In this document: positions 3,204 to 18,868 of the stretch, piece by piece
How the letters are laid out: each line of letters opens with the position of its first letter
Numbering within the stretch: position 1 is the first letter of the stretch
NCBI GenBank assembly: GCA_020073615.1
Contig: JAIQEX010000022.1
Location: 1-62,156, forward strand
Direction of reading: 5' to 3'
DNA: 62,156 nucleotides
From: Terriglobia bacterium
Lineage (GTDB): Bacteria; Acidobacteriota; Terriglobia; Bryobacterales; Bryobacteraceae
The notes under the pieces: model-generated
Databases searched by the model: none
What the model was told of the DNA's origin: nothing
What the model saw: only the letters and a program-made list of their open reading frames with translations
Program-made: the position numbers and the translations under genes

Positions 3204-3207
3204 CGCC

Positions 3208-3234
3208 GTGGGCAACTGGTCATCTGTGCCCCAC
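3208..3234. terminator. Hairpin between convergent genes
   Basis: GTGGGCA (3208-3214) can pair with TGCCCCAC (3227-3234) with one bulge. It lies between the stop codons of the secreted-protein gene and of the minus-strand permease gene. No T-run follows on either strand, so it would be a weak or Rho-assisted end point at best. Confidence 0.25.
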
Positions 3235-3244
3235 ACCGGCCAGC

Positions 3245-5734
3245 TCAGTGACTATGAAGGCACTTAATGGGATCGATCCTGGTGGCCCTCAAGGCTGGAA
3301 TGCCGCACGCCAGAACGCCAATCAGCACTAACACCCCTGCCCCACCGGCGAAGGCACGGGCGTCGTTTGCGTGGACCTGGAATAGCATGGTCTCAAGTAC
3401 GCGCATCGCGGCCCAGGCGCCAAGGGATCCGGTCCCCACGCCGCATGCAACGATGGCGAGACCTTGTCCGAGAATCATCGAAAGCACGTTGGTGCGGCTC
3501 GCTCCCAGAGCCATCCGGACCCCGATGTCCCGGGTCCGCTGCAAAACCGAGTAGTTGATGATTCCGTAGACCCCCACCGCTGCCACCAGCAATGCCAGCG
3601 CCGCGAGGCCGGCCGAAAGCATCATGTAGAACCTAGGGACGACGACCGACGAGGACATGAGGTTCTCCACGGTGTCCAGCCTGCCAATGATCATGCGCTT
3701 TTTCCAAGCCCGGATCTCCTTGCGGACCGCAGCCGCCAGGCTTGCCGGTGGCACGGTGGTGCGTATCAGCACGCAAACGCCATTTGCCCATTCGGATTGC
3801 TGGTGCGGCATGTACAAACTCGGGAGCGGCTCGCCATCTACGCCAAAGCCCTTCACGTCTCCGGCGATTCCAACAATCAGACGCCACTGGTCGCCACTCC
3901 ATCGGATATACCTGCTTACCGGGTCTTCACCTGGAAAGAAGCGCCGTGCGAAGGCCTCATTAACCACCACGACCTTTGGTGCGTCGGCCCCATCGCCGCT
4001 GTCTATGAAACGGCCGCTGCGAAGGGCCATGCCCGCGGCGCGGAAATAGTCCGGAGTCACGGTCAGCCGTCCCGTCTGAGCGCTCTCTTCAGGGGCCATC
4101 GGCCGGCCCTGGATTTCGATACATCTGCCGCAGGTCGTATGGGCAGGCTCATCGGGAAACGATGGGCCTGCACCCGCATGTTGGACTCCTGGAAGCGCTC
4201 GGATACGTTCCAACAACGAGTCGATCTGACGGTGGGCGCTCCACGGAAGCTCGACGCCTAACGCGCCGCCGGGGCGGAAACCGAGCGGCACCGTAACGCG
4301 CAACACGAAACTGCGGATCAGCAGGCCGGATCCGACCAGCAGCACCATAGCCAGCGCGATCTGAACGATGGCGAATCCTCCACGATAGCGAAGGGGGCGG
4401 CACCCACGGAGGGCCTGCGGACTCTCCTTCAATGCGGCATTCAGATCGGGCCGCGATGCCCGAAGGGCCGGGATCATTCCGAAGAGGATACCTATCGAAA
4501 CAGCGGCCGCGAAGGTCCACAGCAAGACGCCGCGGTCGATTGCCACTTCATGCACACGCGGCAGGTGAATGGGATCGAATATGACGAAGGCGCGAACCAG
4601 CCAGTAAGCGCCCGCCAGCCCCAGCATCCCGCCCAGCAGGGCCAGCAGCACGCTCTCCAACAGCAGGGCGCGCATCAACGGCCACCGGGTGGCCCCCAGC
4701 GCGACGCGCACCGCGATTTCCCGCTCCCGGGCCGCCGCCCGCTCCAGCAGGAGGCTGGCGACGTTCGCGCAGGCGATCAGCAACACGCAGAAGACACCTC
4801 CCAGCAACATGAGCAACGGGCGGCTGACGGCTCCGACGATCTGCTCCTTCAGAGAGACAACCGTAACTCCGCTTCCCGCGTTCTCCTTCGGGTACGCTGC
4901 TTCAAGGCGCGCAGCGATAATCTCCATTTCAGCCTGGGCCGCCGGCAGACTCACACCGGCCCTTAGCTTTCCGACAACCCGCAGGCTGCGATCCCCGCGT
5001 TCCGATGGCGCTGGCGCGTCGGTCTGAAATGGAAACCAGACCTCGGAGTCGTTGGGAAAGCTAAAGCCCCGCGGCATGACTCCGGCAACGGTGTAGGGCT
5101 GGCCATTGAGACGCAGGGCGTGGCCAATCACGCTGGGGTCGGCGCCGAGTCGCGCCCATAAGCCATAGCCAAGAATGGCACGGTTTCGATTCTGGCTCTC
5201 TTCCGGAAGAAACCGCCGGCCCATGAGCGGCTGGACCCCTAGCACGCCGAAGAACTCATCACTCACGCAGGACGCGCGCACCTCGATTGGTTCACCATCG
5301 ATCATATACGAAGAGGACCACCCCTGCATGGCGGCGAGAGACTCAAAGGAGCGGCTTTGCGCCTTCCAATCGGCGAAGTTTCCGGGCGAGACTACAACCC
5401 GATCCTCGTGGCGTTTCTCCCGCTTCTCCCAAACCATTACCAGGCGGTCCGGTTCTTTAAACGGCAGCGGCCGCAACAGCACCGCACTAATGACACTAAA
5501 GACCGCCGTGGTCGACCCGATGCCCAGTGCCAGTGTCAACACGACAACGGCAGTGAAGCCGGGGTTCTTACGAAACATCCGAACGGCATACTTCAAGTCG
5601 GAACCGATGGACACCAGTGCTTCCCGGAGGTAATGTCCGTGGCCTAGGTCGTTTGACGGCCGCGCTTGCGCAAGCGGCGTTCCCGCCAAAGGTTGCTGCT
5701 TCATGGGACCCAAACTTATGTCGCGACTTTTCAT
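3245..5734 (-). CDS. Orphan MacB/FtsX-like permease, last gene of the RiPP operon
   Basis: An 829-residue inner-membrane protein with two MacB-type periplasmic core plus FtsX permease halves, the layout called ADOP in acidobacteria. The first transmembrane helix follows the motif MFRKNPGFTAVVVLTLALGIG (about residues 53-73, quoted here as a guide). ERAAAREREIAVRVALGATR and TRDIGVRMALGASR mark the two cytoplasmic coupling regions. No ABC ATPase gene lies nearby, and the N-terminal ADOP regulatory-like segment seen in the 57.9 kb copy is absent. The start is 21 bases from the stop of the thioredoxin-like gene, so it is operonic with the peptide cluster. It could export the product, give self-immunity, or sense envelope stress; the sequence does not decide. 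Confidence 0.85.
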   Translation of the reverse strand: MKSRDISLGPMKQQPLAGTPLAQARPSNDLGHGHYLREALVSIGSDLKYAVRMFRKNPGFTAVVVLTLALGIGSTTAVFSVISAVLLRPLPFKEPDRLVMVWEKREKRHEDRVVVSPGNFADWKAQSRSFESLAAMQGWSSSYMIDGEPIEVRASCVSDEFFGVLGVQPLMGRRFLPEESQNRNRAILGYGLWARLGADPSVIGHALRLNGQPYTVAGVMPRGFSFPNDSEVWFPFQTDAPAPSERGDRSLRVVGKLRAGVSLPAAQAEMEIIAARLEAAYPKENAGSGVTVVSLKEQIVGAVSRPLLMLLGGVFCVLLIACANVASLLLERAAAREREIAVRVALGATRWPLMRALLLESVLLALLGGMLGLAGAYWLVRAFVIFDPIHLPRVHEVAIDRGVLLWTFAAAVSIGILFGMIPALRASRPDLNAALKESPQALRGCRPLRYRGGFAIVQIALAMVLLVGSGLLIRSFVLRVTVPLGFRPGGALGVELPWSAHRQIDSLLERIRALPGVQHAGAGPSFPDEPAHTTCGRCIEIQGRPMAPEESAQTGRLTVTPDYFRAAGMALRSGRFIDSGDGADAPKVVVVNEAFARRFFPGEDPVSRYIRWSGDQWRLIVGIAGDVKGFGVDGEPLPSLYMPHQQSEWANGVCVLIRTTVPPASLAAAVRKEIRAWKKRMIIGRLDTVENLMSSSVVVPRFYMMLSAGLAALALLVAAVGVYGIINYSVLQRTRDIGVRMALGASRTNVLSMILGQGLAIVACGVGTGSLGAWAAMRVLETMLFQVHANDARAFAGGAGVLVLIGVLACGIPALRATRIDPIKCLHSH

Positions 5735-5755
5735 AGTGAGTGGCCTACCGTTCCC

Positions 5756-6394
5756 TTAATGTTGAACGCCGGCGATGCGCCCTGCGACGGGTTCCGTGCG
5801 AACTGCGCACTGGTCGCAAGTCTCTGCTTCAGTCGCGGTGGCGCCTAAACCCGGCAACGATACGTTAAAGAAAGCCTCGACTTCGCGTGCTGTACTGCCA
5901 TCGTAGGCCCCACGCCAGATCTTGAGAACCGTTCCACTGCCAGAAACCACAACCGTTTGTGGAGTTGCGCCCAAACCGATCACAGCACGTGCCTCTCCAG
6001 TTGGATCAGTAAAGACTGGAAAATCGTGCGATTCCTCGGCTAGGTAGTCTTGGAGCCCACTCACCGATTTCGCGATGCCGACCAGGCGATAGCTGGATCC
6101 CACCGTGCGCGCGATCGTTGCCATGTTGGCATTGTTTAGTTTACACCAGCTGCACCTAGGCGCGAACCAGTAAATGATCGTAGGCTGGCCAAAAGTGTAT
6201 CCTAAAGTGACCCGTCTGCCGGTGGCATCCCTCAATTCTATGGGTGGCAGTTGCCCACCAATGATCGCGGCGTGCGCACGGCTAGCATGCATCGACACGA
6301 CTACCCGTGCGAGCCACACGTTGATGGCGATAGACCCAATAAACAGCAGCGCGACAAGACTCCGGATCGCATGTCTTATTGGTACGCTAAGCAC
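5756..6394 (-). CDS. Membrane-anchored thioredoxin-like (TlpA/redoxin) protein
   Basis: About 212 residues with an N-terminal membrane anchor (roughly 10-34) and a redoxin/thioredoxin fold facing the periplasm. The active-site motif is CSWC at residues 81-84, preceded by the typical IIYWFAPR strand. A conserved cis-Pro region (ATPQTVVV) follows near residue 145. The start is GTG with a GAGG ribosome site seven bases upstream. It lies between the M16 protease pair and the permease in the RiPP operon. Because the precursors are rich in cysteine, a role in keeping core cysteines reduced, or in forming disulfides, is a reasonable inference. The C-terminal tail carries a CxxC (CDQC), probably not catalytic. 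Confidence 0.85.
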   Translation of the reverse strand: MLSVPIRHAIRSLVALLFIGSIAINVWLARVVVSMHASRAHAAIIGGQLPPIELRDATGRRVTLGYTFGQPTIIYWFAPRCSWCKLNNANMATIARTVGSSYRLVGIAKSVSGLQDYLAEESHDFPVFTDPTGEARAVIGLGATPQTVVVSGSGTVLKIWRGAYDGSTAREVEAFFNVSLPGLGATATEAETCDQCAVRTEPVAGRIAGVQH

Positions 6395-6429
6395 GGTTAC
6401 CCTCTTTCTCTGTCCTCATCCTCCAGCCT

Positions 6430-7899
6430 TCAGCGCAGGCCCTGGATCTGTTGCCAGGGCACGAACTCTTCTACGGCCGGTCGGACTTTGGCGGAGTCGC
6501 CTACCACAACTAGTTGCATGGTAGCACGATCGAAGTATCGGCATGCCGCGCGGTGCACATCATCTCGCGTCACCGACATGATATGCTCATGGAACTTATT
6601 CGCTTCGCTTGACGGGAGGCCCAATTGCCGATGTTGTATGGCCAAGCCAAGCGCTGAAGCCGGCTGTTCCAAGAAAAATGCATAAGCGGCTACGAGCGCC
6701 CGTTTGGCGTCATTGACCTCCTCTTGGGGTATCTCCTGCCGGCAGAGATCGTCGATTTCGAAAAGCATGAGCTTTATAGCTTCAGACGCGGATTCCGCGC
6801 GCACATCGGCGTATGCCGTCCAAGCACCAGGCCGCTGGTTGGCCGAGAAGGAGCTGCCCACGCTATACGCCATACCTTTTACACCGCGAAGCTTGGCGGG
6901 AAGTCGCGACGACGGTTCGCTGCCGAAGATCCGGTTCAGTACCAGCATCGGAAAGTAGTCTTCGCTCAAGCGGCTTGCGCCCAGGTTCCCGATCCGGATG
7001 GTACTCTGGACCGACTCCGGCCGGTCAATCACGAACGCTCTTGCATGTGGGAGTTGGGCCGCCTCGCTGGGTATTGGTGCCTTGAATTCGCTCCCCGCCC
7101 ACGCGCCGAATATCTTGCGCACTGCGGCTATCGCCCGTCTCGGACGGATATCGCCAGATATTCCAAGAACGGTCTTTTGGGGAAGGAACCGGCCGAAATG
7201 CCACTGCACCAGAGCATCCACCATGCATTTGGGGCATACCTTTAGGGTGGCTGACACCGAAACACCCGGCTTGTCGCCGTAAACGGCCTTTCGGAACTGC
7301 TGGTCGGCCAAATAACCGGGCGAGGCGGCTTGCCGCTGCTGTTGCGACTCGCGTCGTCGGACTGCATCAATGAGTTCCTCGGCTGAAAACCTGGGCCGCA
7401 GAACAACGTCCGCCAGTACGCTCAACCACTGATCGAAGTTGTCACTTAGACCCCACGCACGTATTACCGCTTCCGATGAACCCGCAGGTGCCGATGTGGA
7501 CACGGAGACTCCAAGGTGTTCCATATCCTCCGCGAGTTGCCGACGCCCTCGTCTATCGGTGCCTGCGAGTAACATCTCAGTGGTCAGTTCAGCGAGACCG
7601 CGGTTCCCAGTGGGTTCGCAAACCGGCCCCGCGTCCGCGACGTGAAACTCGATGTGAATAACCGGCGACCGGTGATTCTCAATAATTATCAGCGTAAGGC
7701 CATTCTCAAGAGCTACCTCGACTGGAGGAGGCAATTGTACCTTTACCAGGTCCTGCGAAACCGGCGCTTTGAACTGAAAACCTCCGAAAAGGGTTCCGTT
7801 CCGGGAGTGATCCCTGCTTTCCTGCGCCATGAACCGCATCGCGGCGAACGCAATCAGAGCCACAATCCGAAAGACCATTCGGGAACGCAATAACCTCAT
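6430..7899 (-). CDS. M16-family protease subunit lacking the zinc site (inactive partner)
   Basis: 489 residues with a signal peptide and the two-domain M16B fold (for example ENGLTLIIIENHRSPVIHIE, and LVVVGD near the C-terminus). Where active enzymes have HxxEH, this protein reads NRGLAELTTEML, so both His ligands are missing. It keeps the C-terminal half features of substrate-binding M16 subunits. Its ATG overlaps the TGA of the preceding active M16 gene by four bases, so the two are translationally coupled. This matches the active/inactive heterodimers known for PqqF/PqqG and mitochondrial processing peptidase. Its job is probably to help grip and cut the leader of the cysteine-rich precursors. 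Confidence 0.9.
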   Translation of the reverse strand: MRLLRSRMVFRIVALIAFAAMRFMAQESRDHSRNGTLFGGFQFKAPVSQDLVKVQLPPPVEVALENGLTLIIIENHRSPVIHIEFHVADAGPVCEPTGNRGLAELTTEMLLAGTDRRGRRQLAEDMEHLGVSVSTSAPAGSSEAVIRAWGLSDNFDQWLSVLADVVLRPRFSAEELIDAVRRRESQQQRQAASPGYLADQQFRKAVYGDKPGVSVSATLKVCPKCMVDALVQWHFGRFLPQKTVLGISGDIRPRRAIAAVRKIFGAWAGSEFKAPIPSEAAQLPHARAFVIDRPESVQSTIRIGNLGASRLSEDYFPMLVLNRIFGSEPSSRLPAKLRGVKGMAYSVGSSFSANQRPGAWTAYADVRAESASEAIKLMLFEIDDLCRQEIPQEEVNDAKRALVAAYAFFLEQPASALGLAIQHRQLGLPSSEANKFHEHIMSVTRDDVHRAACRYFDRATMQLVVVGDSAKVRPAVEEFVPWQQIQGLR

Positions 7900-9296
7900 G
7901 ATGACCCCCGGTCCGAAGGTGCGCTGGCCGGCTCCTTACGGCCGGCTCGCGGCACAGTCACAACAACCGATCGATTCTCCTGAATGAAATACTTGGCAAC
8001 AGCACGCTGGATGTCTTTCTTGGTAACTCGATACAGCTTGTCAACAAAGGTGTTGAGAAGCCCGGGGTCGTTGTAGAATAGAGCAAACTCGCTCAGCACA
8101 AGCGCTCTATACGTGGAGCTCTGAAAGCGCTCTGCACTTGTAAGCACGAAGTCCCGGCGTACTTTATCGACTCGCCAGTCATCAATCGGGTCCTTCTTGA
8201 AGCGTTCGAGTTCCGTATAGAGAACCTCCTCTGCAGCGGCGACGTCATCGGACTTTTTCAGCGTGACCGAAAACGTTCCCAAGGCGGCGGCGCGGCGCTG
8301 CTGCTGCTGATATGCTACACGCGCCGCGAGATTCTTCTCCAACACGAGCGTGCGGTGGAGCAGTGACGAGTGTCCCTCAGCGAGCACGTCCCCGGCGACG
8401 GCCAATGCATACCACTCGGGACTATTGCCAGGCGGCACCTTGTAACTGATGTCGATGCGCGACGCCTTTGCAAAAGAGTCCTCGACAGTTCGCTGCCGCG
8501 CCGACTCGCGTACGTCCGGAGTAAAATCCGGTGGCTGGGGTAGCGTTCCAGCGGGGATGCCTCCGAAGCGTTTCCGAACCGCAGCCAGTACCTCCTCGGG
8601 CCGGACGTTTCCCACCACCACCAGTACGGCATTGTTCGGCATGTAAAACGTCCGATAAAAACGCAGCACCGTCTCGGTAGTGGCGGCACCCAGATCGGCC
8701 GACGTTCCAAACGTGGAATGGCGGTAGGCGAAGTTCTCAAAGGCGATGTCGTTCAGCACTTCGGAAGCGCGACCGTAAGCTTTGTTGTCCACACGGATCA
8801 TCTTCTCCTCCAGGACCACGTGGCGTTGCAGATCGAGCCTCTCGGGGGTTACCGTCAGGCCCGCCATTCGGTCCGCCTCCAGGAACAAGCCGAGATCCAA
8901 CTGATTTGCCGGCAGTGCCTCATAGTAGTTGGTGCGATCCGTGTTGGTTGTCGCGTTCTCCGATCCGCCGTTGGTCCGAATGAGATACGAGTGCTCTCCC
9001 GGGCCGACATTCCGTGATCCCTCGAACATCAAGTGCTCGAGCAGGTGCGCCAGGCCAGTTTGGCCCGGCCGCTCATCTCTCGATCCGACGTTATATGCCA
9101 TACAGATCGCGTAGGTTGGTGCGGACTTGTCCGGCGCGACTACGACACGGAGCCCATTCTTTAACGTGTACGTCTTGAAGGCGACTGTAAAGTGCGGTAG
9201 GCGCTTGGCGTTGGCGCCGGCGTCCGCGGTCGACACCGCGGCCCAACAGACGATTACAGCCGTCACATATGCGGATTTGGGTCTGTGCATAAGCAT
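7896..9296 (-). CDS. M16-family zinc protease, catalytic subunit
   Basis: 466 residues with an N-terminal signal peptide and the inverted zinc motif HLLEH (residues 84-88). The distal Glu ligand is in VVLEEKM (about 163-164). The active-site neighbourhood TNTDRTNYYEALP is also conserved in M16B enzymes. The next gene encodes an inactive relative, and together they should form a heterodimer. The gene starts 17 bases after the M50 protease stop. In subtilosin A biosynthesis the M16 proteins AlbE/AlbF act on the modified peptide, which is the closest functional precedent; the substrate here is inferred from context only. Confidence 0.93.
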   Translation of the reverse strand: MLMHRPKSAYVTAVIVCWAAVSTADAGANAKRLPHFTVAFKTYTLKNGLRVVVAPDKSAPTYAICMAYNVGSRDERPGQTGLAHLLEHLMFEGSRNVGPGEHSYLIRTNGGSENATTNTDRTNYYEALPANQLDLGLFLEADRMAGLTVTPERLDLQRHVVLEEKMIRVDNKAYGRASEVLNDIAFENFAYRHSTFGTSADLGAATTETVLRFYRTFYMPNNAVLVVVGNVRPEEVLAAVRKRFGGIPAGTLPQPPDFTPDVRESARQRTVEDSFAKASRIDISYKVPPGNSPEWYALAVAGDVLAEGHSSLLHRTLVLEKNLAARVAYQQQQRRAAALGTFSVTLKKSDDVAAAEEVLYTELERFKKDPIDDWRVDKVRRDFVLTSAERFQSSTYRALVLSEFALFYNDPGLLNTFVDKLYRVTKKDIQRAVAKYFIQENRSVVVTVPRAGRKEPASAPSDRGSS

Positions 9297-9313
9297 AATG
9301 GAGATAGCCGGAG

Positions 9314-10705
9314 CTACCGTGAACCTGCCAACGCCCAGTAGGCTTTCGCCATCGTGGCACGAAGCGACTCACTCTGCCATGCTCTCCGCGACATTCGCAA
9401 TATAAACCGAACCGATCCAAGGCCGGCTATGGAGAGGAAGAATGAGGCGATGAGAAGTTGGGTCAAGTGAGCGGAGAAGTCATGCTGCAAGAGCGCCTTC
9501 CAGATTAGGGCGAAGTTTCGGGGGAGCCCTGCCGCGACGCGCGGGATGACTTTGGTGACTATTGCGACGGAGAAGTACCCAAAGAAGGCGGTGCTGGCGA
9601 GACAATATGCCGCCAGTATCGAAACCACCCACCCGGGTCTGCGTAGAGCATCCGGCAGGTCAGGGCGCTTGCCTCCGACGTTCAAAAGGAACATAGCCCG
9701 CTTGCAGGCATACGCAATGAGGTCATTGCTGGCTCGGTACAAGTTCGGAATTCCGATCAAATCCGCGAGCAACCAGTGCCCGTCCATTCGGAGAAAGGGA
9801 TTGAGGTTGAAGATAGCGGAAAGAAGCATACTATAGATGAATATTCTCACAAGGCGGTCGCCGGTCCAAATCCAGAGTAAACACCCCAACGACGCCAGAA
9901 GGAACTGAAAGTAGATACCGGCGGAATCGACCACCGCCCTCTGAAGACGCGAAAGCGACCAGCACTGGCCTACATCGGCATAGAGAACGGGATAAATAAA
10001 GAAGACTCCGGCGCCGATCTCCCCATGCGGAACTCCGAACCGTTCGCAGGCAGAGCAGTGGCCGATCTCGTGAAACAGCAATGAGAGATATACACTGACG
10101 ACAGCTATTGTCCACAGGTCTGCGCTCAGGGGCGGCCTCTCGCCAAGGTAGTGAACTTTTAGCACTTTGTCGAGAAGCAGAAAGACCGCATGGGTGAGAA
10201 TGATGACGGCCAACAGGGCAGTCGCGGGCCCGATATTGAAGAGACATTTTAGTCGCGCGGTTACCGGCAAGAGGTGCTCTCGCTTCAGGAGACGAACATG
10301 GAATGCCAGGGGCACCTTCCGACGGCGAATTGGCATCCTCGGATCGGCCGGTAGCTCGCAGCCCGTCTCGTCCAACAGAAGTACCGCGTTGTTGGACGTC
10401 AATTGGCTCAGCAGCATTCTCGCGCGACGCTCCGGATCTTCGGAGGGAGCGAGTTTCCTCACTACGGAAACGATCTCCGCCCAACTCCGGTCAACCCGGA
10501 GAAATTCGAGGAAAGAACGGACGTCGGCGTCGATCTGAAGCCGGCGATCCGCCAGCACTAGTTGGTACATCGGGTCCGAAGAGCTGGTATCGAAAGCCAG
10601 GATAGTAGCGCCCGAGTTTAGGTGGAAACGCTGGTCTTGGACGTAGGACACGCCCATCTCAGCGGCCATTCTGCCTTTTGGTTTGTAATTCTGCAAACGA
10701 TTCAT
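9314..10705 (-). CDS. M50-type membrane metalloprotease with PqqD-like N-terminal region
   Basis: 463 residues. The first 120 form a soluble region resembling a PqqD/RRE-like peptide-binding domain (inferred from size, position and the Asp-rich helix pattern). At least six membrane segments follow. The zinc site is HEIGH at 212-216 and the third ligand lies in the NPFLRMDGH loop (Asp308), so the site is complete. Such 'peptide zinc metalloprotease' proteins occur in RiPP clusters, for example YydH beside the radical SAM enzyme YydG. It is the first gene after the three precursor genes, separated from them by 204 bases holding a strong hairpin. Likely role: cutting the modified precursor in or at the inner membrane. 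Confidence 0.85.
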   Translation of the reverse strand: MNRLQNYKPKGRMAAEMGVSYVQDQRFHLNSGATILAFDTSSSDPMYQLVLADRRLQIDADVRSFLEFLRVDRSWAEIVSVVRKLAPSEDPERRARMLLSQLTSNNAVLLLDETGCELPADPRMPIRRRKVPLAFHVRLLKREHLLPVTARLKCLFNIGPATALLAVIILTHAVFLLLDKVLKVHYLGERPPLSADLWTIAVVSVYLSLLFHEIGHCSACERFGVPHGEIGAGVFFIYPVLYADVGQCWSLSRLQRAVVDSAGIYFQFLLASLGCLLWIWTGDRLVRIFIYSMLLSAIFNLNPFLRMDGHWLLADLIGIPNLYRASNDLIAYACKRAMFLLNVGGKRPDLPDALRRPGWVVSILAAYCLASTAFFGYFSVAIVTKVIPRVAAGLPRNFALIWKALLQHDFSAHLTQLLIASFFLSIAGLGSVRFILRMSRRAWQSESLRATMAKAYWALAGSR

Positions 10706-10751
10706 AGCGTAGACCAGGTTCCGGCAATGCGGCTGTCTTATGCAATCCGGC

Positions 10752-10799
10752 GCTCAAGTGCTCTGCATTCGATTTTCGATGCGCCGGCTGCACTTGAGC
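10752..10799 (-). repeat. Stem-loop between precursor genes and processing genes
   Basis: A perfect 10-bp inverted repeat, GCTCAAGTGC (10752-10761) and GCACTTGAGC (10790-10799), with a 28-base loop that itself contains a smaller stem (GCAT..TCGA / TCGATGC). There is no T-run after it on the minus strand. Its place, after the last precursor and before the protease genes, is where RiPP operons often carry a partial terminator or RNA-stability stem that lets precursor mRNA exceed enzyme mRNA. Confidence 0.6.
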
Positions 10800-10909
10800 T
10801 AGGCCGCAGTTACGGCCGCTTCCTCACGGGCGCGGTCACGTGACGCAGTGCAAGTCACTGAACCGCGCTCGTCGGGAAGCGGTATCTTGACTCTTCTACC
10901 GCCAAACTG

Positions 10910-11131
10910 CTAGCTGCTAGCGTCCTCATCCTCGGCGCCGCCGCCGCCGCCGGGTTTGGGACATCCTCCTGGACAACCGCAATCCGCCGAATTCGTGCAA
11001 CTGTTGTTGGTACCACAACAAGCCGTGGTGTTGCTGCAACTGCCATGCCACTCGCTTAGCGCGTCGTCGTCGACTACGGCAATTCCAAACTCATACCGGT
11101 CATCGAGTTCCGTGATCAGAAAGCTGTTCAT
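10910..11131 (-). CDS. RiPP precursor peptide 1 (cysteine-rich core)
   Basis: A 73-residue peptide starting at the ATG with a strong AAAGGAG site eight bases upstream; an upstream in-frame extension is rejected because the leader homology starts exactly here. The leader contains FLITELDDRYE, identical in all three paralogues, followed by FGIAVVDDD. The core has seven Cys in the order C-x5-CC-x5-C-TNS-x2-C-x-C-x3-C. It ends in a PGGGGG run and an acidic tail (AEDEDASS). It belongs to the operon with a radical SAM/SPASM maturase and several proteases. Probable product: a thioether- or disulfide-bridged peptide; a metal-binding peptide is the main alternative. Confidence 0.88.
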   Translation of the reverse strand: MNSFLITELDDRYEFGIAVVDDDALSEWHGSCSNTTACCGTNNSCTNSADCGCPGGCPKPGGGGGAEDEDASS

Positions 11132-11156
11132 ATCGGTGCTCCTTTCAAGTCGCCCG

Positions 11157-11375
11157 TTACGATGAAGCGTCTTCTTCCTCCGCACCACCCTTGCAGCATG
11201 CACTACCGGAACAATTATTCGAGTTCGTACAATTACCGGGCTGGTTACTTCCGCAGCACGTGCCGGAGTTCTTGCAAGACGATCCTTCGTTGTCGTATCG
11301 AAGTACGTCGTCGTCGATGACCACGATGCCAAATTCATAGCGATCATCGAGTTCTGTGATCAAGAAGTCACTCAT
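11157..11375 (-). CDS. RiPP precursor peptide 2 (cysteine-rich core)
   Basis: 72 residues starting MSDFLITELDD. The first 24 residues are almost identical to the other two copies (MSDFLITELDDRYEFGIVV then IDDD). The core pattern is C-x5-CC-x6-C-TNS-x2-C-x4-CC, again seven cysteines, but with CC near the end where the other copies have separate cysteines. The tail is AEEEDASS. The ribosome site (AGGCGAC) is weaker than that of its neighbours. The gene lies 25 bases upstream of precursor 1 and 32 bases downstream of precursor 3, so the three form a tandem array created by duplication with core divergence. Confidence 0.88.
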   Translation of the reverse strand: MSDFLITELDDRYEFGIVVIDDDVLRYDNEGSSCKNSGTCCGSNQPGNCTNSNNCSGSACCKGGAEEEDASS

Positions 11376-11407
11376 CTGTATGTCGCCTGACCCAACTAGG
11401 CGCTATG

Positions 11408-11614
11408 TCAGCCGTCTACGTCCTCCTCAACGCCTGTGCCCTTGCAATCGGGGCACTTGCATACGGCGCTATTTGTGCAATCGCCTTGATTCTGATCGCA
11501 ACATTTGCCCGTGTTCTGGCAACCCGGGGTGTTCAGCCTTAGGACGTCGTCATCTATTACGACGACGCCAAGCTCGTATCGGTCGTCTAGTTCTGTGATG
11601 AGAAAATCACTCAT
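11408..11614 (-). CDS. RiPP precursor peptide 3 (cysteine-rich core)
   Basis: 68 residues from the ATG that follows AAAGGAGACGGC; a 22-residue upstream extension is open but not shared by the paralogues. The leader FLITELDDRYE is conserved, with L for F after it. The core is C-x5-CC-x6-C-TNS-x2-C-x-C-x2-C, seven cysteines, ending with the acidic tail VEEDVDG. It is the first precursor after the maturase gene, with a 150-base gap containing a palindrome at 11642-11654. CTNS is invariant in all three cores, which suggests that Asn/Ser/Thr next to Cys are sites of modification or structural constraint. Confidence 0.88.
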   Translation of the reverse strand: MSDFLITELDDRYELGVVVIDDDVLRLNTPGCQNTGKCCDQNQGDCTNSAVCKCPDCKGTGVEEDVDG

Positions 11615-11641
11615 GCCGTCTCCTTTGTCTGTGTTGTTGAT

Positions 11642-11654
11642 CGGTTCTGAACCG
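11642..11654. promoter_or_regulatory. Perfect palindrome upstream of precursor 3
   Basis: CGGTTC-T-GAACCG lies 28 bases before the start of precursor 3. It may be a repressor site or a small RNA stem near the ribosome site. No clear internal promoter is seen in the 150-base gap, so its role is open. Confidence 0.35.
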
Positions 11655-11763
11655 GTATGATGCGTAGCTATCGATACCACAGCGCGCGTAAAATCGCGAG
11701 GTTCAGCGACAAGTGCACTCGGCCGCTCACGGCAGCGACGATATTCGCGGAGTAGTGCCCGGA

Positions 11764-13236
11764 CTAAGCATGTGCCTGAGTGCCAGGGGGCGAAAGCTCG
11801 GTGTATCGCAAGAGTTTCTCACGCTGCATATCGTAGCGATTGGCCCGCTCGTTGTTCATGAGCCACATCTTCTTCAGGACGTTGCCGATCCGCAGTTTTT
11901 CCGGCGGGCAGCAACGTTGATTATTGACCACCCGCCTGACCGGGCAGACCGCACCACCGCACAGGGGAAGGAAAAAGCACTTTCGGCACACTGAGTCGTC
12001 CCTGAAATGCGGAGTACACCAACGGGCGAACCGGTCGATGTCTATCGCCATGGTGCCGTCTTCCTTTAGGCGGCCAACGATATTTCGTGGATTGCTGTCC
12101 AGCATGACGGTACACTTCATCAGGTTGCCGTTGGCCCCGACAGTGAGGTGTTGCGGTTCGTTTGCGTAGCAGGGCTCGCCAAAGGGTCTGGAGTTGGGAA
12201 CGGTCCGATGAACTTGCATTCCCATCTCCCGTCCCAGGACCTCGAGTACGTCCCGCTGCGGGTCCATATCGCCGCAAGTCTTGAGGCTGCCATCGTTCGA
12301 TCCCCCCAATTGCCGAATTGGGTAGAAGAACAGTTTGAACCGGGCGTCTTCTTTGAAGCAACCCAGCAAGGCGATGAATTCACGCATTCGCCGCGCATTC
12401 GCTTGGTCGAAGTTTACCCGCAACATGACTCCGAACTCGTTCGGGAAAGTCTGAATTGCCTTGAGATTTTCCAGAATGCGGCTGAAGGTAGGCCCACCGC
12501 CCTTGAGCATGCGACGGCAGTCGTGATCTTCGGGAAGGCCATCAATAGTGACTTGGAACTGTTTGATATTCCATTGCAGCAGTTTGGCAAAGGTGTCCGG
12601 CGTCAGGAGATAAGCGTTAGTCGTCATACCCGATGAAAAGCGGATTCCGTGCTCTCCCGCCAGTTTCAGGAACGCCGGTGCGACCTCGGCAATCGCCTCA
12701 AAGCCCAGTAAGGGCTCGCCGCCAAAATACGACACTGTCAGACGCCGTAGATGCGGCGCCCGCTGCTCCATCATGCGGATTAGCGCTGTGCGGACCCAGG
12801 GCTCCATGGTGCCACGTTCGAATGTTTCGTAGCAGTAAATACAGCGGAAATTGCAGTCTTCCGATGACAGCAATGTGAGATCCAGAAAGTCCTGACGATA
12901 ATGCCGTTGGCCGTAACGTAACTGAAATCTCTCGAATTCCCTGGCGCCGCGCGGCACGATGAAGCCCCGGTCTGCCATATATTTCGTTAGGCCCGTTGGT
13001 GGAGCCGTGAAGCCTCGGCGGTGAAGGAGAGGCTCCACCTGCGGCCGTGCTTCGGGAGGAAATCCCGAGAAGGCGTGGCTGTAGCTGTTCCACAGAACCA
13101 GCGTTCCATCGGGCGCGGTGGTTCGGGCGTTGAACTGCGATGGCACCCATTTGCGCGGTTCGTCAGCGGCGGATGGGTATGTGCCGCTCGCAACGGGCAT
13201 GGTCATCTGAACGGCGTTTTGCGTAGGCGAACTCAT
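11764..13236 (-). CDS. Radical SAM/SPASM peptide maturase
   Basis: About 490 residues. An N-terminal segment of some 110 residues (FNARTTAPDGTLVLWNS region) resembles the start of SPASM peptide maturases. The radical SAM motif is CNFRCIYC (Cys128, 132, 135) and the SAM-binding YFGGEPLL follows. The C-terminal SPASM domain has C-x2-C-x5-C-x4-C (CRKCFFLPLCGGAVC) plus further cysteines, consistent with two auxiliary iron-sulfur clusters. The ATG used has AGGGG seven bases upstream; a TTG one codon earlier is possible. It sits directly before three Cys-rich precursors and is the predicted modifying enzyme, probably making thioether links as in sactipeptides or ranthipeptides. The exact reaction cannot be read from sequence. 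Confidence 0.93.
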   Translation of the reverse strand: MSSPTQNAVQMTMPVASGTYPSAADEPRKWVPSQFNARTTAPDGTLVLWNSYSHAFSGFPPEARPQVEPLLHRRGFTAPPTGLTKYMADRGFIVPRGAREFERFQLRYGQRHYRQDFLDLTLLSSEDCNFRCIYCYETFERGTMEPWVRTALIRMMEQRAPHLRRLTVSYFGGEPLLGFEAIAEVAPAFLKLAGEHGIRFSSGMTTNAYLLTPDTFAKLLQWNIKQFQVTIDGLPEDHDCRRMLKGGGPTFSRILENLKAIQTFPNEFGVMLRVNFDQANARRMREFIALLGCFKEDARFKLFFYPIRQLGGSNDGSLKTCGDMDPQRDVLEVLGREMGMQVHRTVPNSRPFGEPCYANEPQHLTVGANGNLMKCTVMLDSNPRNIVGRLKEDGTMAIDIDRFARWCTPHFRDDSVCRKCFFLPLCGGAVCPVRRVVNNQRCCPPEKLRIGNVLKKMWLMNNERANRYDMQREKLLRYTELSPPGTQAHA

Positions 13237-13360
13237 CAATTGACCCCTTTTGCCTCGTGTCTGTACTGTTTAGACGCACTCTAGGGAACACGATTCGGAG
13301 CGGCTCTATGCATCAGCCGATCCTCCGCTTAACCGTGGGAACGTGCAACCGGCCTGGCGT

Positions 13361-13861
13361 TCAGGCCAGTGTTGATACGGAATTGCCATGCAGGCGCACA
13401 CGGATCGAACGCTGCAGGAGTAGAATCGACACAACAAGCCAATCCGAATCGTTGTACGATACCAGAACTCCCTCAATTCCTGCCAACGGTCCCTGCACGA
13501 TGACGACCCTCTGGCCAATCTCAGAAAAAGGACACCGTTCGGCTACAGTTCCGGAATCGTGAATGCGGCGAATGTCTTGGATTTGGGTGTTGTCCACGGG
13601 GGCGGGCCTATTCCCAATTCCAACTATTCGGAGCACTCCCGGCGTTGTGAGCAAAGGACCGACCACATCAACTCCATGGCGGCAGAACAGGTACCCGGGG
13701 AACAGCGGCGAACTCGCAGCCTTCGAAGGCAAGGCGTTTCGGCGCCCCATGGGCAGAAAAACCTCATACCCTTTGCTAACCAAGACGGTAGCAGCGAGTC
13801 TTTCCTTCCTCGATATAACTTGAACAGCGAACCATTGATTAGAGGAGGGTTCAAACAGCAT
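13361..13861 (-). CDS. Specialised NusG paralogue (RfaH/UpxY/LoaP-type antiterminator)
   Basis: 166 residues: an N-terminal NGN domain starting QWFAVQVISRKE with PLFPGYLFCR near residue 55, and a C-terminal KOW domain (GQRVVIVQGPLAGIEGVLV). Operon-specific members of this family load onto RNA polymerase and suppress pausing or termination over long operons. It is the first gene after a consensus promoter and precedes the radical SAM gene by about 120 bases. The roughly 10-kb operon has internal hairpins, so control by antitermination is a natural inference. It is not the housekeeping NusG, which normally sits beside secE and rplK. Confidence 0.9.
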   Translation of the reverse strand: MLFEPSSNQWFAVQVISRKERLAATVLVSKGYEVFLPMGRRNALPSKAASSPLFPGYLFCRHGVDVVGPLLTTPGVLRIVGIGNRPAPVDNTQIQDIRRIHDSGTVAERCPFSEIGQRVVIVQGPLAGIEGVLVSYNDSDWLVVSILLLQRSIRVRLHGNSVSTLA

Positions 13862-13901
13862 ATATGTCCTGCCATCCGGCTTCTACCGTGCAACAGCAAG
13901 A

Positions 13902-13913
13902 CAAGCTGCCGCC
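13902..13913 (-). promoter_or_regulatory. ops-like element in the operon leader
   Basis: On the minus strand the leader reads GGCGGCAGCTTG. It matches the RfaH recruitment element ops (GGCGGTAGCGTG) at 10 of 12 positions. It lies about 35-45 bases after the predicted transcription start and before the NusG-paralogue gene. A small stem (GGCAGC..GCTGTT) is possible just here. A chance match in GC-rich DNA cannot be excluded. Confidence 0.4.
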
Positions 13914-13953
13914 ATTTACTCGTTTGAGGAGTCCTAAACGCTTATGAAAGTAA

Positions 13954-13982
13954 TATATAGACCCAATCTAAAGAGATGTCAA
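13954..13982 (-). promoter_or_regulatory. Consensus sigma-70 promoter of the RiPP operon
   Basis: On the minus strand, TTGACA (13982-13977) and TATATA (13959-13954) are separated by exactly 17 bases. The predicted start lies near 13947, giving a leader of about 86 bases before the NusG-paralogue ATG. The flanking DNA is A/T-rich compared with the rest of the window. Confidence 0.8.
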
Positions 13983-14111
13983 GGCCTTTTAATCGTTTGT
14001 TGAGAAAACTAGTACCAGCTTCTCCCGGGTAGGTATCGAGCGCCGTGTCGGCCAGATGCTCTTTGAGCTACAAAGCACTAAGGGCTTAAAGTGAGGCCGT
14101 GCCCCACTCAG

Positions 14112-15206
14112 CTAGTCTCCGGGCACGCGCTCCGGCCTGGGGGTGGACCACAGGCCCGCGCCGGAGAGCCCCGCCACCACGCGATGGCGATACGTTTTCG
14201 CCGTCGAGATGGCGAGCATCAGCAGAACGATCAGCACCGCCGCCGCCACCGTCTGCGGCACCGTGAGGTTGTTCTTGAAGAACGCCAGTCCGCGCCCATA
14301 GACCAGCTCGATGTGCACCCAGTAGACCAGCAGCGAGGTGGTGCCGAACTGCCGCACCCAGCTCCAGCCTTCTTTGGCGGCGTAGCGCGTCCACAGGAAA
14401 GCGAGCGCCACCAGCAGCAGCGTCGTGCCCTGCTTGGTCAGCACCTGCGCCGGGCTGTTCAGCCAGAATTCCGATTTGGCGTAGATGGAATAGGGCACGT
14501 TGGCCAGGTACTGGCATGCCAGAATGAGTCCGCCGCCCAGGAGCGCGGCCCACTGTGCGGCGCGCTCTGTCGCTTCATGCGGGATCAGGCGGATGGCGCT
14601 GCCCGCGCTCAGGCCGAACGCCAGGTAGGCGCCCCAGGGGAAAAAGCCGAAAGATCGATAGTCGGGAACGATGTAACTCCGCAGCAGAGCGGGCGCCAGC
14701 GACCAGTCCATCTGCGAAATCAACGGCGCGGCGAAGGCGATGGCCAGTCCGAGCGCCGCGCACAGGCGTACCCGCTCGGCGGTCCGGAACAGCGCCATCA
14801 CCGACATCACCGCGATGGAAAAACCCATGCAGTTCAGAATGTCGACGCGCAACAGATCGGTCCAGGGCGCCGGCAGGCCGAACACCCAGAGCTGCAGGCG
14901 AAACGCGAAGGCCAGAAAAAACAGGTAGCCGGAGCGGCGAAACGCCGTGAACACGCGCTCGCGGGGAGCCATGCCCTTGCGCTCGGCGCTGTCCATCATG
15001 AAGGCCAGGGTCACGCCCGTGAGGAAGAGGAAAATCGCGGGGGGCATGCCGCCCACAAACTGCGAGAGAACGAACGGGCCGCCCTCGCGCAACTCGGGCT
15101 TCAGAAACGAATCGAATACGTGGCCCTGGAGCATAATCACGGCGCCGATGCCGCGCACCCAATCGAGATATTGCAGCCGGTAAGGGCTGGTTTTGGCGGT
15201 CTTCAT
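14112..15206 (-). CDS. Polytopic membrane protein, DUF1624/HGSNAT-like acyltransferase
   Basis: 364 residues with about ten hydrophobic segments. The N-terminal RLQYLDWVRGIGAVIMLQGH matches the start of the heparan-alpha-glucosaminide N-acetyltransferase-like (DUF1624) family, whose conserved Asp and His are both present. These integral membrane acyltransferases modify sugars or membrane components; the substrate here is unknown. The start is two bases after the stop of the LolA-like gene, so they are co-transcribed with the truB group upstream. The 250 bases between this gene's end and the RiPP operon hold that operon's promoter and nothing else that I can support. Confidence 0.8.
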   Translation of the reverse strand: MKTAKTSPYRLQYLDWVRGIGAVIMLQGHVFDSFLKPELREGGPFVLSQFVGGMPPAIFLFLTGVTLAFMMDSAERKGMAPRERVFTAFRRSGYLFFLAFAFRLQLWVFGLPAPWTDLLRVDILNCMGFSIAVMSVMALFRTAERVRLCAALGLAIAFAAPLISQMDWSLAPALLRSYIVPDYRSFGFFPWGAYLAFGLSAGSAIRLIPHEATERAAQWAALLGGGLILACQYLANVPYSIYAKSEFWLNSPAQVLTKQGTTLLLVALAFLWTRYAAKEGWSWVRQFGTTSLLVYWVHIELVYGRGLAFFKNNLTVPQTVAAAVLIVLLMLAISTAKTYRHRVVAGLSGAGLWSTPRPERVPGD

Positions 15207-15208
15207 CG

Positions 15209-15925
15209 CTACTTATGGTCCAATTCCGGTTTCTTCTTGGAGGCCTTGTGCGCGCCTTTGGGCAGGTTGAAGGCGGAGTCGGAGATGCTGGGGTTCATCT
15301 GAATATTGGTGTAAGTGGCCAGGATAAAATCTCCACCCGGTTCGTAAAATTTCTGCTGCACGGCGATCCCCTTGCCATCGGAGATCCAAAGTTCGACCTT
15401 CTTCAGGTGGGCGAGCACGTCCTGGTCCTTGGGAATCAATTCGAGCCGCGTGGTTTTCTCGCCGGCGGCCGCTTCCGGTCCCACCATTCTGATGGAATAG
15501 GCGCTGGCCAGCTCCCGGGAGTTACTGCCGAATCCGAGTACCAGGAACTGGTCCACCAGGGAACTCTGTTTACCCAGGTCCACCACCTGGACTTCGCCGC
15601 TCCTGGGGTAATAGATGTCCGCCTTGTGGCCCTCGATCACCACCGTTTTGGGATCCGGTTGCAGAATGTCCATGCGCACGCGGAGATCGTTGGCCTTCGG
15701 GCGCCTGACCAGGACAGTCCCGGTATCGGTCGTCTCTTCGTTGATCACGGCGGTGTAAGAAACTTTCTTCACGTCCGCGGAAAGTCCTTTGAATTTGGCG
15801 GCGGTCTCGTCTATGCGAGCCAGCACCGCCGCCAGCGTGGTATCAGCAGCGGAAGCGCCAAACTCCGAGGTCAGGAGAGCCGGCAGTGTAAGAATGAGCA
15901 CAAGCGGGGCCCGCCAAGATCGCAT
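15209..15925 (-). CDS. LolA-like outer-membrane lipoprotein carrier
   Basis: A secreted protein of about 238 residues with a signal peptide (RAPLVLILTLPALL) and the LolA fold signature: a helix with FKGLSADVKKVSY, then strands including KTVVIEGHKADIYYP. LolA-type proteins ferry lipoproteins through the periplasm, but many acidobacterial relatives have unknown cargo. The ATG at 15925 is chosen because the signal peptide begins there; a GTG ten codons earlier is possible. It lies between the small membrane protein and the DUF1624 gene. A Lys-rich C-terminus (KASKKKPELDHK) is a local feature. Confidence 0.82.
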   Translation of the reverse strand: MRSWRAPLVLILTLPALLTSEFGASAADTTLAAVLARIDETAAKFKGLSADVKKVSYTAVINEETTDTGTVLVRRPKANDLRVRMDILQPDPKTVVIEGHKADIYYPRSGEVQVVDLGKQSSLVDQFLVLGFGSNSRELASAYSIRMVGPEAAAGEKTTRLELIPKDQDVLAHLKKVELWISDGKGIAVQQKFYEPGGDFILATYTNIQMNPSISDSAFNLPKGAHKASKKKPELDHK

Positions 15926-15958
15926 CCTGTTGTAATTCCTCTGTAAATTCGACACCGG

Positions 15959-16309
15959 TCAAGGCCTGGCGAACGCTATATAGAAGCGCAGTTCCCCTTC
16001 CGAATCCATGAACGGCTCCACGCGGGTGACCGTCAGGTGCGAATTGCTCATGCGCGTACGCACTTCCTGCGTCAGCTTGGCCAGGCGCTGGTTCTCCGGC
16101 ATGCCCGCCAGGAATTCCGGATCGACCACAAAAGGCAGGCTCCCCTTTTCCGCCGGCAGCATGGTGATGATGCTGGCCTGGGGAATGCGCGGACGGTCGC
16201 GGAACCATTCCCGGGGAACCAGGAAGATGAACGCCAGGATGATGCCGACCATCACGTCGTACTGCCAGCTCGCGCGCGCATAGTCCCACAGAACGAAGCG
16301 CTTCAACAT
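15959..16309 (-). CDS. Small single-span membrane protein downstream of truB
   Basis: 116 residues. One membrane segment lies at about 19-31 (VMVGIILAFIFLV), followed by a soluble domain of roughly 80 residues ending FYIAFARP. I do not recognise a named family. The segment RMSNSHLTVTRVEPFMD looks like a compact alpha/beta unit. It follows truB by 33 bases and precedes the LolA-like gene, so it probably belongs to this transcript and may assist envelope traffic; that is inference only. Confidence 0.75.
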   Translation of the reverse strand: MLKRFVLWDYARASWQYDVMVGIILAFIFLVPREWFRDRPRIPQASIITMLPAEKGSLPFVVDPEFLAGMPENQRLAKLTQEVRTRMSNSHLTVTRVEPFMDSEGELRFYIAFARP

Positions 16310-16342
16310 GTAATAGCCATTCTAGCAAGCGGCGGCGCGGCG

Positions 16343-17224
16343 TCACAGCACCACCGCCGGATGATACAGGTTGGGCAGCACGGCCTCGCCGATGGCCACC
16401 AACTCGCCCTGGCGCGTGATGGCCCTGACGTACCGCGAGGCGGGCTGCGAACGGAAGGGAGACGCCGGAAAATTGCGGCCGTCGCGGATCTGCGCCGCGG
16501 TCGCTTCGTCCACGTACACCGCCGGGAAGCCGGGGAGCATGCTCGCCGCCGGCACCAGCGCGTCCATCAGCCGTTCCCCGGCGGCCAGTGATTCTAGCTG
16601 GACAATGGTTCGCGCCTGGCCGATTTCGAATTCTCCCGACGCGATGCGCCGCAGCTCGTCGAGGTGTGCGCCGCAGCCGAGCGCCTGCCCCAGGTCGTGG
16701 GCGATGGAGCGCAGGTAGGTTCCCCCCGAGCAGTGCGCGCGAATGCGCGCGTCGGGGCCGTCCACCTCCAGCAGCGTCAGCTCGTAGATGTGCACCTTCA
16801 CAGGCGCGAGCTCGACCGCCAGCGATTTGCGCGCCAGCTCGTAGGCCCGCCTTCCCGCGATCTTCTTGGCGGATACCGGCGGCGGCGTCTGCAGGAGCTC
16901 GCCGCGAAATCTCTCGAGCAGCGCTTCGAGCTCGCGAGCGTCGAGGCGGACTTCCGTTTTGGGGCCGGAGGGGACGCCCGACCGGTCGTAGGAGTCGGTG
17001 GACCAGCCGAACCGCACCACGCCTTCATAGATCTTGTCGGAGCGGGTGTAGAACTGCGCCAGGCGCGTGGCGCGTCCGATCACCAGCGGCAGGACGCCGG
17101 TGGCAATGGGGTCGAGCGTCCCCAGATGGCCGATCCTCTTGGTATTGGCGATACGGCGGGCCTTGCTCACCACATCGTGCGAGGTCCAGCCCTCGGGTTT
17201 ATCGACTACGATCGCTCCGTCCAA
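16343..17224 (-). CDS. truB: tRNA pseudouridine-55 synthase
   Basis: Converts U55 in the T-loop of tRNAs to pseudouridine. The opening IVVDKPEGWTSHDVV and the catalytic loop GTLDPIATGVLP (Asp38) are complete. A C-terminal PUA-like region (residues about 235-293) follows, with RYVRAIT. Length 293 is typical. The start codon is TTG, and no ATG is available without losing the conserved first strand. The usual neighbours rbfA/infB/rpsO are not in this window. Confidence 0.96.
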   Translation of the reverse strand: MDGAIVVDKPEGWTSHDVVSKARRIANTKRIGHLGTLDPIATGVLPLVIGRATRLAQFYTRSDKIYEGVVRFGWSTDSYDRSGVPSGPKTEVRLDARELEALLERFRGELLQTPPPVSAKKIAGRRAYELARKSLAVELAPVKVHIYELTLLEVDGPDARIRAHCSGGTYLRSIAHDLGQALGCGAHLDELRRIASGEFEIGQARTIVQLESLAAGERLMDALVPAASMLPGFPAVYVDEATAAQIRDGRNFPASPFRSQPASRYVRAITRQGELVAIGEAVLPNLYHPAVVL

Positions 17225-17371
17225 GCTGCGGCACCCATCTCGGTTATAGCAGGGTACGCAGAGGGTTCGCGCGCTATTTCGCCGTGTGTGTGAGCTTGTC
17301 CAGTATGGCTTTGGGCCAGTCCGCGATGCCGGGAGTGTATCCCGCCGTCTCCAGCCAGACTCCAGCCGCGT

Positions 17372-18223
17372 CTACAAGCCAGTTCTGTGGTATGGCGAAC
17401 CCGCCGCCGGGTTCGTGGATTTCATAAATTCGTCCCCGGGCCGAACCGCGGGCGCGGTCATATCGTTCGGAACCGCGGGACCGAGAGATATCTCCGCCAG
17501 CGCTTCTTCAGCGAGGGCGAGCGAGTCCCCCGGCCGGATGCCGTACTTGATCCACTGTTGCGCGACGCGCAGCTTCGCTGGCACATAATTCCATTGCAAA
17601 TGCCGTGCCGCGGACAACCTCAAATATTCTTCACCGGCCTTTTCCAGCTCCTCTTTCGTCCAGCCGGGCTGGCTGGGGAGGGTGGTGAGACGGAAACTCC
17701 ACGCGGTCGCGCTGCCCGGCCATTTCCCGACCCATTCGGCCGCATGGCGCGCCTCATCGTCCCAAATGGCTTTTCGTTCTGCCTGGGGGATGTTGTTGCG
17801 GGTCCGTAGCCGGTGGCTGGTTTCCCACGCCTGGTAGGCGCGGAACGCGAGTTGATCCTCATCGACCAAGGCCGCCTCGATTTTGGCGCCGGCCTCCTCC
17901 TGCCCGCTGAGTTTATAGCCGCTTACCATGGCCCACCGCGCGTTCTGGCTTGCCGCCGCGGGCAACGACGCCAGGCGCCGCACATCGGCCGCGATCCGCT
18001 CGCGCAGAGAGGCACATTCGCCAGGCGCCGACAGGCGGAATTCCGCGGCCCACAAGGTGCTCCACCACGCGGCATCCTCCGGGTCCTGGCTGCGTTCCAG
18101 CAGGGCCCGCAACTCGTGGGTCAACCTGTCCGCTTCCGCCGCATCTTTGACGGACCGCAAGTAGGTGTAACCGGAGACGCTGTCCGGGCACAGCCGGCGG
18201 AACTCGCGCTGGTTGGCTACCAC
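17372..18223 (-). pseudogene. 5'-truncated gene, unknown helical (TPR-like) protein
   Basis: 283 residues of mostly helical sequence rich in Ala, Glu, Arg and Trp, looking like TPR-type repeats (AAEADRLTHELRALLERSQ and EKAGEEYLRLSAARHLQWN). There is no signal peptide, although similar proteins are usually secreted. The GTG start has no good ribosome site and the frame stays open further upstream. Immediately upstream, on the other strand, begins the C-terminal part of a TonB-dependent receptor that also lacks its 5' part. Both genes therefore seem cut at one junction near 18224-18240. Function unknown. Confidence 0.6.
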
Positions 18224-18235
18224 CTTGTCCTCGTC

Positions 18236-18822: not shown

Positions 18823-18868
18823 ACTTACATCCGCCCCGTGACCAACGGCGCGGGCCCACGTCAATGTC

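Follow-up and report, generated by a model that had tools for sequence, protein, structure and literature searches.

Three tandem genes for probable cysteine-rich peptide precursors with a common leader, beside a radical SAM/SPASM maturase and a probable RRE-bearing leader peptidase in a Terriglobia bacterium

The DNA analysed here, a stretch of 62,156 nucleotides from a Terriglobia bacterium ("the window"), carries an accessory block whose features are collected in Table 1. In order of transcription the genes encode a NusG/UpxY-like factor, a maturase, precursors 1-3, an M50-like protease, an M16 peptidase and its partner, a TlpA-like protein and an ADOP permease. In the one congener examined (G001, locus L185) the regions corresponding to 493-3203 and 14116-17274 are collinear with the window at 85% and 88% identity, and only about 22 bases lie between them where the window has 10.9 kb, so the block is an accessory unit. 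Its GC content is lower than that of window positions 1-3203 (65.4%) and 14116-20000 (63.8%). A 9-bp direct repeat near the block ends (3226, 14099) is too short to call. Apart from the own genome and the congener, none of 41 genomes has its best matches to the two flank genes close together, though contig breaks may hide such a case; these matches lie on different contigs in G020 and 1.2 Mb apart in G008. Scans for promoters and terminators stayed at chance (2 against 3.4 and 9 against 8.5), and hence give no sign of an antitermination site for the NusG-like factor. Another 2.2-kb stretch (window 17275-19507) likewise lacks a counterpart in G001, and contains at 18259-18822 what by eye resembles the C-terminus of a TonB-dependent receptor.

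Table 1. The accessory block and its genes, with positions in the window
Feature	Position	Strand	Basis and remarks
Accessory block	3204..14115		GC 58.1%, ten genes; no counterpart in congener G001
NusG/RfaH/UpxY-like factor, first block gene	13361..13861	minus	UpxY 70.7 bits (cut-off 100); Pfam NusG 55.2 bits, above cut-off
Radical SAM/SPASM peptide maturase, predicted N-terminal RRE-like domain	11764..13239	minus	Profiles, fold match, alignment A5
Precursor copy 1	11408-11614	minus	68 aa, ATG start, leader and 7-Cys core
Precursor copy 2	11157-11375	minus	72 aa, ATG start, leader and 7-Cys core
Precursor copy 3	10910-11131	minus	73 aa, ATG start, leader and 7-Cys core
RRE-M50 (site-2-protease) fusion, probable leader peptidase	9314..10705	minus	Profile, fold, HEIGH and NPFLRMDG motifs
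M16 peptidase with HLLEH	7896..9296	minus	Pfam M16 and M16_C above cut-off; signal-like N-terminus by eye
M16 partner without HxxEH	6430..7899	minus	Pfam M16 and M16_C above cut-off; motif absent
TlpA/ResA-like thioredoxin, CSWC	5756..6394	minus	Pfam AhpC-TSA 27.7 bits (cut-off 26); ResA-like under cut-off
ADOP-family FtsX/MacB-like permease, last block gene	3245..5734	minus	TIGR03434 858.7 bits (cut-off 622.3)

The precursor genes follow one another head to tail, in the same direction, between the maturase gene and the M50-like gene. AAAGGAG lies upstream of the ATG in copies 1 and 3, and the site of copy 2 is weak. A first-pass annotation had described three precursors with a common FLITELDDRYE, DDD and seven cysteines, and the reading frames and their alignment bear this out: FLITELDDRYE[FL]G and DDD are common to all three leaders, each peptide has seven cysteines, and of the 78 columns of the alignment 31 do not vary, 18 of these falling within the first 25. 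The core cysteines are separated by x5, x0, x5-7 and x5, and irregularly thereafter. These layouts are as previously noted, except that the spacer from CC to CTNS measures 6, 7 and 5 residues instead of five or six. Each core holds two similar C-x-N-[ST]-x2-C units, the second of which is the CTNS unit (as listed, CQNTGKC and CTNSAVC in copy 1, CKNSGTC and CTNSNNC in copy 2, CSNTTAC and CTNSADC in copy 3). The acidic tails had also been taken as conserved, which holds for the EDASS common to two copies, while the third tail is EEDVDG; the C-terminal residues are Ser, Ser and Gly. In searches against NCBIfam and Pfam the precursors matched no model.

Among the three paralog pairs synonymous differences approach saturation both in the leader, with a pS of 0.78-0.95, and in the core, with 0.74-1.07; the copies are therefore old, and for the same reason dN/dS is mostly undefined. 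The leader is constrained while the core changes: pN summed over the pairs is 0.10 in the leader against 0.43 in the core, a gap equalled in none of 2000 column permutations. When the columns of invariant cysteines are removed, the core pN is 0.52 and the gap is again equalled in none of 2000 permutations. We do not claim positive selection on the core.

The maturase contains CNFRCIYC (C129-x3-C133-x2-C136) and seven SPASM cysteines. None of these varies among the 26 maturases of alignment A5, which were chosen for a complete C-terminus; shortened ones that miss the last SPASM cysteine (such as L026, L028, L031, L032 and L089) were left out. The SPASM domain scores above the cut-off of NCBIfam TIGR04085 and below that of Pfam SPASM. 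Among NCBIfam maturase families the best is TIGR04463 (171.6 bits, cut-off 525), and the other top ranks are held by CefB (153.4 bits, cut-off 600), FlmE/OhkG, Clo7bot and geopeptide maturases, all far under their cut-offs; the PapB profile gives 99.8 bits (cut-off 340). The annotations of several of the closest named families refer to Cys-rich peptides. The AlphaFold model (mean pLDDT 86.9) has its best solved fold match in 5why (Z 23.5, 381 aligned residues, rmsd 4.6, model residues 34-460), a structure entitled as a thioether-forming enzyme, which we take to be CteB. It also matches 8vpo TigE (Z 21.3, residues 27-464), and the aligned identity to 5wgg and 5why is 17-18%. Predicted strands and helices in residues 31-113 fit an RRE, and the N-terminal domain looks RRE-like in the model, although few fold rows (5why, 5wgg, 8vpo) align this part and residues outside 111-458 are barely tested by the comparison. 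By sequence and model, the enzyme thus appears to be a SPASM radical SAM maturase with an RRE-like domain, as in sactipeptide and ranthipeptide systems.

The best named family for the protease is NCBIfam daptide_HExxH (108.3 bits against a cut-off of 300), and a PDB sequence search gave no match up to E 1. In the predicted model (mean pLDDT 75.8, the RRE part below 85) residues 21-116 match many solved RREs, among them 8vpo TigE (Z 9.9), 5v1v TbiB1 (Z 8.9), MccB (Z 8.3) and 5sxy PqqD (Z 7.8). The membrane part that follows matches the site-2 proteases 3b4r (Z 9.4) and 8vjl SpoIVFB (Z 9.3). All nine rows of the protease alignment retain HE-x-GH and a distal D-G-x-W.

Matches to the maturase at E<=1e-20 occur in 3 of 61 related genomes and at E<=1e-35 in 17 of 396 genomes of the phylum (own genome included in both counts), and exact peptide patterns retrieved no close relative from genome contigs. 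A contig scan with alignment A3 covered the best 80 of 195 confirmed loci, and relatives may be missing from it. For the protease, 49 of 396 genomes (with the own genome counted) have matches at E<=1e-12, most of which lie within much longer frames; of the other genomes' matches the four best were taken further, together with five loci that additional searches brought up. A precursor profile applied to 150 genomes of the family, drawn from a larger group, matched in 8. The window's three precursors were strong, and seven other genomes gave one weak match each (E 0.02-0.1), which on reading were rejected as precursors. The profile missed the precursor of locus L182 even though its genome, G536, matched elsewhere, so absence by profile is weak evidence.

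L182, from the same family, is the best comparator. Its maturase is 41% identical to that of the window, and is followed in the same direction by one precursor, an RRE-M50 homologue, a VKOR/thioredoxin-like fusion and an ADOP permease. L056, from an Erythrobacter MAG, has maturase, precursor and protease. Downstream of that protease (L056 10141-14396) lie three arginase/agmatinase-like reading frames and a cupin/JmjC-like one, named by eye, which perhaps modify the same precursor.

Other small reading frames were seen beside related radical SAM genes. In a Spirochaetaceae MAG (L076, 9639-11678) seven tandem Cys-rich ones follow such a gene, six with the leader KPQSxETxENxxVYxCE and the seventh with a variant, unlike the leader of the window. 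L026 (7091-7708; G044, same order) encodes a 205-aa precursor candidate of alternating C-x4-C and C-x5-C beside a maturase 40% identical to that of the window over residues 118-407, in which the last SPASM cysteine is absent. Protease-less loci with maturases related to the window's encode candidates with two or three cysteines that end in or near N-C-x-C or NCGGC (L061 7787-7900, L065 6870-7501, L070 9379-9675).

For leaders of other genomes, the best ungapped alignment to the window leaders was compared with 3000 shuffled sequences, near-copies L166a and L167b being left out. The score was reached by no shuffle for L182, by 2 for L183, by 4 each for L056 and L176, by 6 for L177, 20 for L166b and 40 for L178. 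The result was weak for L167a (76), and the test failed for L089a (901) and L089b (1445). Eight precursor candidates from protease-less loci were reached by 119 to 2651 shuffles. The cores behave differently: similarity to the window lies within composition for L182 (487 of 3000), L056 (2824), L089a (1018), L089b (977) and L076 (2818), and is marginal for L167a alone (15 of 3000, one of six tests). There are look-alikes by eye, CTNSNNCS in copy 2 and CTPSNNCS in L182, and PTNS in L076. The invariance of CTNS is limited to the three paralogs, with no statistical support from any relative, and conservation of CTNS across genomes was dropped because the shuffles show no core likeness beyond composition.

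The first-pass annotation had read the three genes as a RiPP array in which one enzyme serves several cores, had proposed comparing leader and core in homologues, and had considered that equal conservation of both would point to a metal-binding structural protein. The opposite pattern is seen in L182 and L056, the two loci whose maturases group with that of the window: likeness to the window exceeds chance in the leader but not in the core, and this contrast supports the array. Two further suggestions of that annotation, CTNS as a modification site and removal of the acidic tails, are speculative. We interpret the three reading frames as very probably RiPP precursors and not a metal-binding protein. 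They are short, with a conserved leader and a variable core, and they are linked to a putative modifying enzyme and a putative leader protease, as judged by family and predicted fold.

The leader goes with the protease. A strict motif, E[LIVA][DE]xR[LYIFWH][DE][MLF] in a reading frame of 35-115 aa, is present in 10 of 12 protease loci (202 kb), which are not independent in that L177 and L178 belong to one genome. It occurs in none of 98 radical SAM loci without a protease match (1.38 Mb), many lower-ranked ones of which hold distant radical SAM genes, possibly with roles other than RiPP maturation. The association (Fisher 1e-12) concerns a motif framed after some of the counted loci had been viewed. 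The two exceptions are L169, with a truncated maturase and no motif, and L168, with the protease and neither a radical SAM match nor the leader motif found at the locus; the RRE-M50 homologue of L168 (8464-9804; G065) lies near genes that by eye are ketosynthase- and reductase-like. In L183 a stop interrupts the protease frame, and the motif-bearing frame lies about 3.5 kb away on the opposite strand. The leader is also common to Cys-free precursors in L166, L176 and L178. No paper with the motif, in several spellings, was found in the literature searched.

The maturase of L089 has only about 40 residues ahead of the radical SAM core, which leaves no room for an RRE, and the precursors nonetheless carry the motif; this suggests the protease as one docking partner. 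On the other hand, a looser [LIW]-x-x-R-L-[EN]-M stretch is found in two protease-less radical SAM loci (L065, L070), which suggests that the leader may dock to the RRE of the maturase too. In a maturase tree of 36 rows, chosen by us among the retrieved loci, the window groups with L182 and L056 in a single clade (100/99); some branches are long, that of L178 most of all, and 12 forks are open. The label "protease plus leader" requires three changes on this tree, and the protease/leader module therefore pairs with different maturases.

An ADOP gene is found in 7 of 10 same-phylum protease loci, in two of them on the strand opposite to the protease, and in none of 20 same-phylum radical SAM loci without protease (Fisher 6e-5). 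The linkage is suggestive only, since the control loci have a shorter mean length and the ADOP density of other genomes may differ. About 67 ADOP genes (68 matches, of which two are parts of one) are present in the 6.96 Mb of the own genome, a number that itself points to the Acidobacteriota, and the literature searched contained ADOP only in an unrelated species description.

We consider it probable that the block encodes radical SAM RiPP precursors with an RRE-bound leader, a thioether-forming maturase, leader removal by the RRE-protease, and later M16 and TlpA-like steps in the periplasm. The leader, centred on E-L-D-D-R-Y-E-[FL], would be bound by the RRE of the maturase, of the membrane protease, or of both. 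The maturase most likely uses the thiols of the core cysteines for thioether cross-links of sacti- or ranthipeptide type, and the RRE-protease would then release the leader within the membrane, by analogy with the role proposed for daptide MpaP; modification and leader removal are proposed here from predicted folds, gene linkage and precedent. Further trimming of the product in the periplasm is probably the work of the M16 pair, and there the TlpA-like protein, with a membrane-anchor-like N-terminus by eye, would keep or set the redox state of the remaining cysteines. These periplasmic steps are proposed from motifs and from N-termini that look signal-like by eye. The ADOP permease may serve export or immunity. 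With one leader common to all, a single enzyme set would yield three different Cys-rich products. The computation itself establishes the constraint on the leader against the change in the core, the association of leader and protease, the limits of the block and, as predicted models, the RRE-like folds. We infer the thioether chemistry, the order of the steps, the site of leader cleavage and the roles of the M16, TlpA-like and ADOP proteins from these data, and likewise a biological activity of the products.

Alternatively, the peptides may be RiPP precursors on which the radical enzyme performs another reaction (epimerisation, C-C cross-link, hydroxylation or backbone splicing), the cysteines ending mainly in disulfides set by the TlpA-like protein. 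We regard this as rather improbable. The VKOR/thioredoxin-like fusion in the L182 cluster would suit it, as would the TMcins, RiPPs whose published description combines an S2P-clan leader protease with a disulfide-making DsbA-like oxidoreductase (PMC13252029). The Cys-free precursors with the same leader in L166, L176 and L178 also speak for it, although those of L166 and L178 belong to another maturase lineage, in which L167 and L177 nevertheless have Cys-rich cores. Against disulfides as the main fate of the cysteines stand the thioether-forming best fold match and the annotation of several nearest maturase families for Cys-rich peptides, and we retain thioether formation as the preferred reading.

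Small metal-binding (metallothionein-like) or structural Cys-rich proteins, with the conserved N-terminus as part of the fold, would account for seven closely spaced cysteines and an acidic tail. This is very improbable given a constrained leader and a free core at near-saturated synonymous divergence, the presence of the leader on Cys-free peptides, and the RRE-bearing maturase and protease encoded in the same accessory block. Slighter still is the chance of a daptide-type cluster with a C-terminal amine product, for which the RRE-M50 architecture and the similar E-L-[DE]-x form of the leader would speak, as the peptides end in Ser or Gly and not Thr, the leader lacks MEAP, and none of the seven larger block proteins matches an aminotransferase, a decarboxylase or an N-methyltransferase.

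Two layers of RiPP biosynthesis, which most studies treat together, can here be told apart: across loci the leader follows the RRE-membrane protease, and the radical enzyme and core change. A wider possibility, which we put forward tentatively and think unlikely on balance, is that an E-L-[DE]-x-R-x-[ED]-[MLF] leader, the RRE-site-2-protease and, in this phylum, an orphan ADOP permease form a portable chassis used by at least three radical SAM lineages with unrelated cores, and thus an undescribed membrane-matured class. If true, some members of the large family of ADOP permeases would thereby gain a first function, in RiPP export or immunity; at present a role is suggested for a few of them. 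The leader motif beside RRE-M50 offers a sequence handle for finding more such clusters.

Among known systems, daptides (MpaA, MpaP/DapP) are similar in the RRE-M50 peptidase, a short E-L-E/D-x leader and several small precursors. The daptide study (PMC10036551) describes a leader motif ELExMEAP, an invariant C-terminal Thr and several similar small precursors per cluster, reports that variants at L(-7) and M(-4) of the motif abolished MpaB/C processing, and states that the leader is removed by an RRE-dependent intramembrane peptidase. The fusion of RRE and M50 peptidase is found in the window by predicted fold, with a profile score under the family cut-off as given above. By contrast, its leader, ELDDRYE[FL]G, has only E-L-[DE]-x in common with ELExMEAP, none of the three precursors ends in Thr, no daptide decarboxylase, aminotransferase or methyltransferase was matched among the seven larger block proteins, and the cores are Cys-rich and accompanied by a radical SAM/SPASM maturase. 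Daptide membership was rejected on the three features of leader, C-terminal residue and enzymes. TMcins likewise have an S2P-clan protease that removes the leader and an oxidoreductase in the cluster, whereas their precursor is a transmembrane helix, and the main text of their description contains neither "radical SAM" nor "RRE" (PMC13252029).

SCIFF/CteB, PapB-type ranthipeptides and sactipeptides share with the window the SPASM maturase with a predicted RRE-like domain, the Cys-rich cores and the 5why fold; the maturase of the window is distant from theirs at the identity given above, and its leader and protease are daptide-like. The TIGR04463, CefB, Clo7bot and geopeptide families are among the best profile matches, at scores far under cut-off. 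In the literature searched no paper mentions TIGR04463, TIGR04280, rSAM_vs_C_rich, geopeptides, Clo7bot or Cys-every-fifth peptides. In families with a cysteine at every fifth residue the spacing is regular, as it nearly is in the L026 precursor, unlike that of the window cores. Membership in TIGR04463 or CefA/CefB was rejected on scores and Cys spacing, as the maturase stays below 525 bits for the former and the window shows neither regular spacing nor a CefB score over 600 for the latter. No named family is matched above cut-off by maturase, protease or precursors. We regard the system as a new combination of known parts, and not as an altogether new kind, in which probable radical SAM RiPP precursors are joined to a daptide-like handling of the leader.
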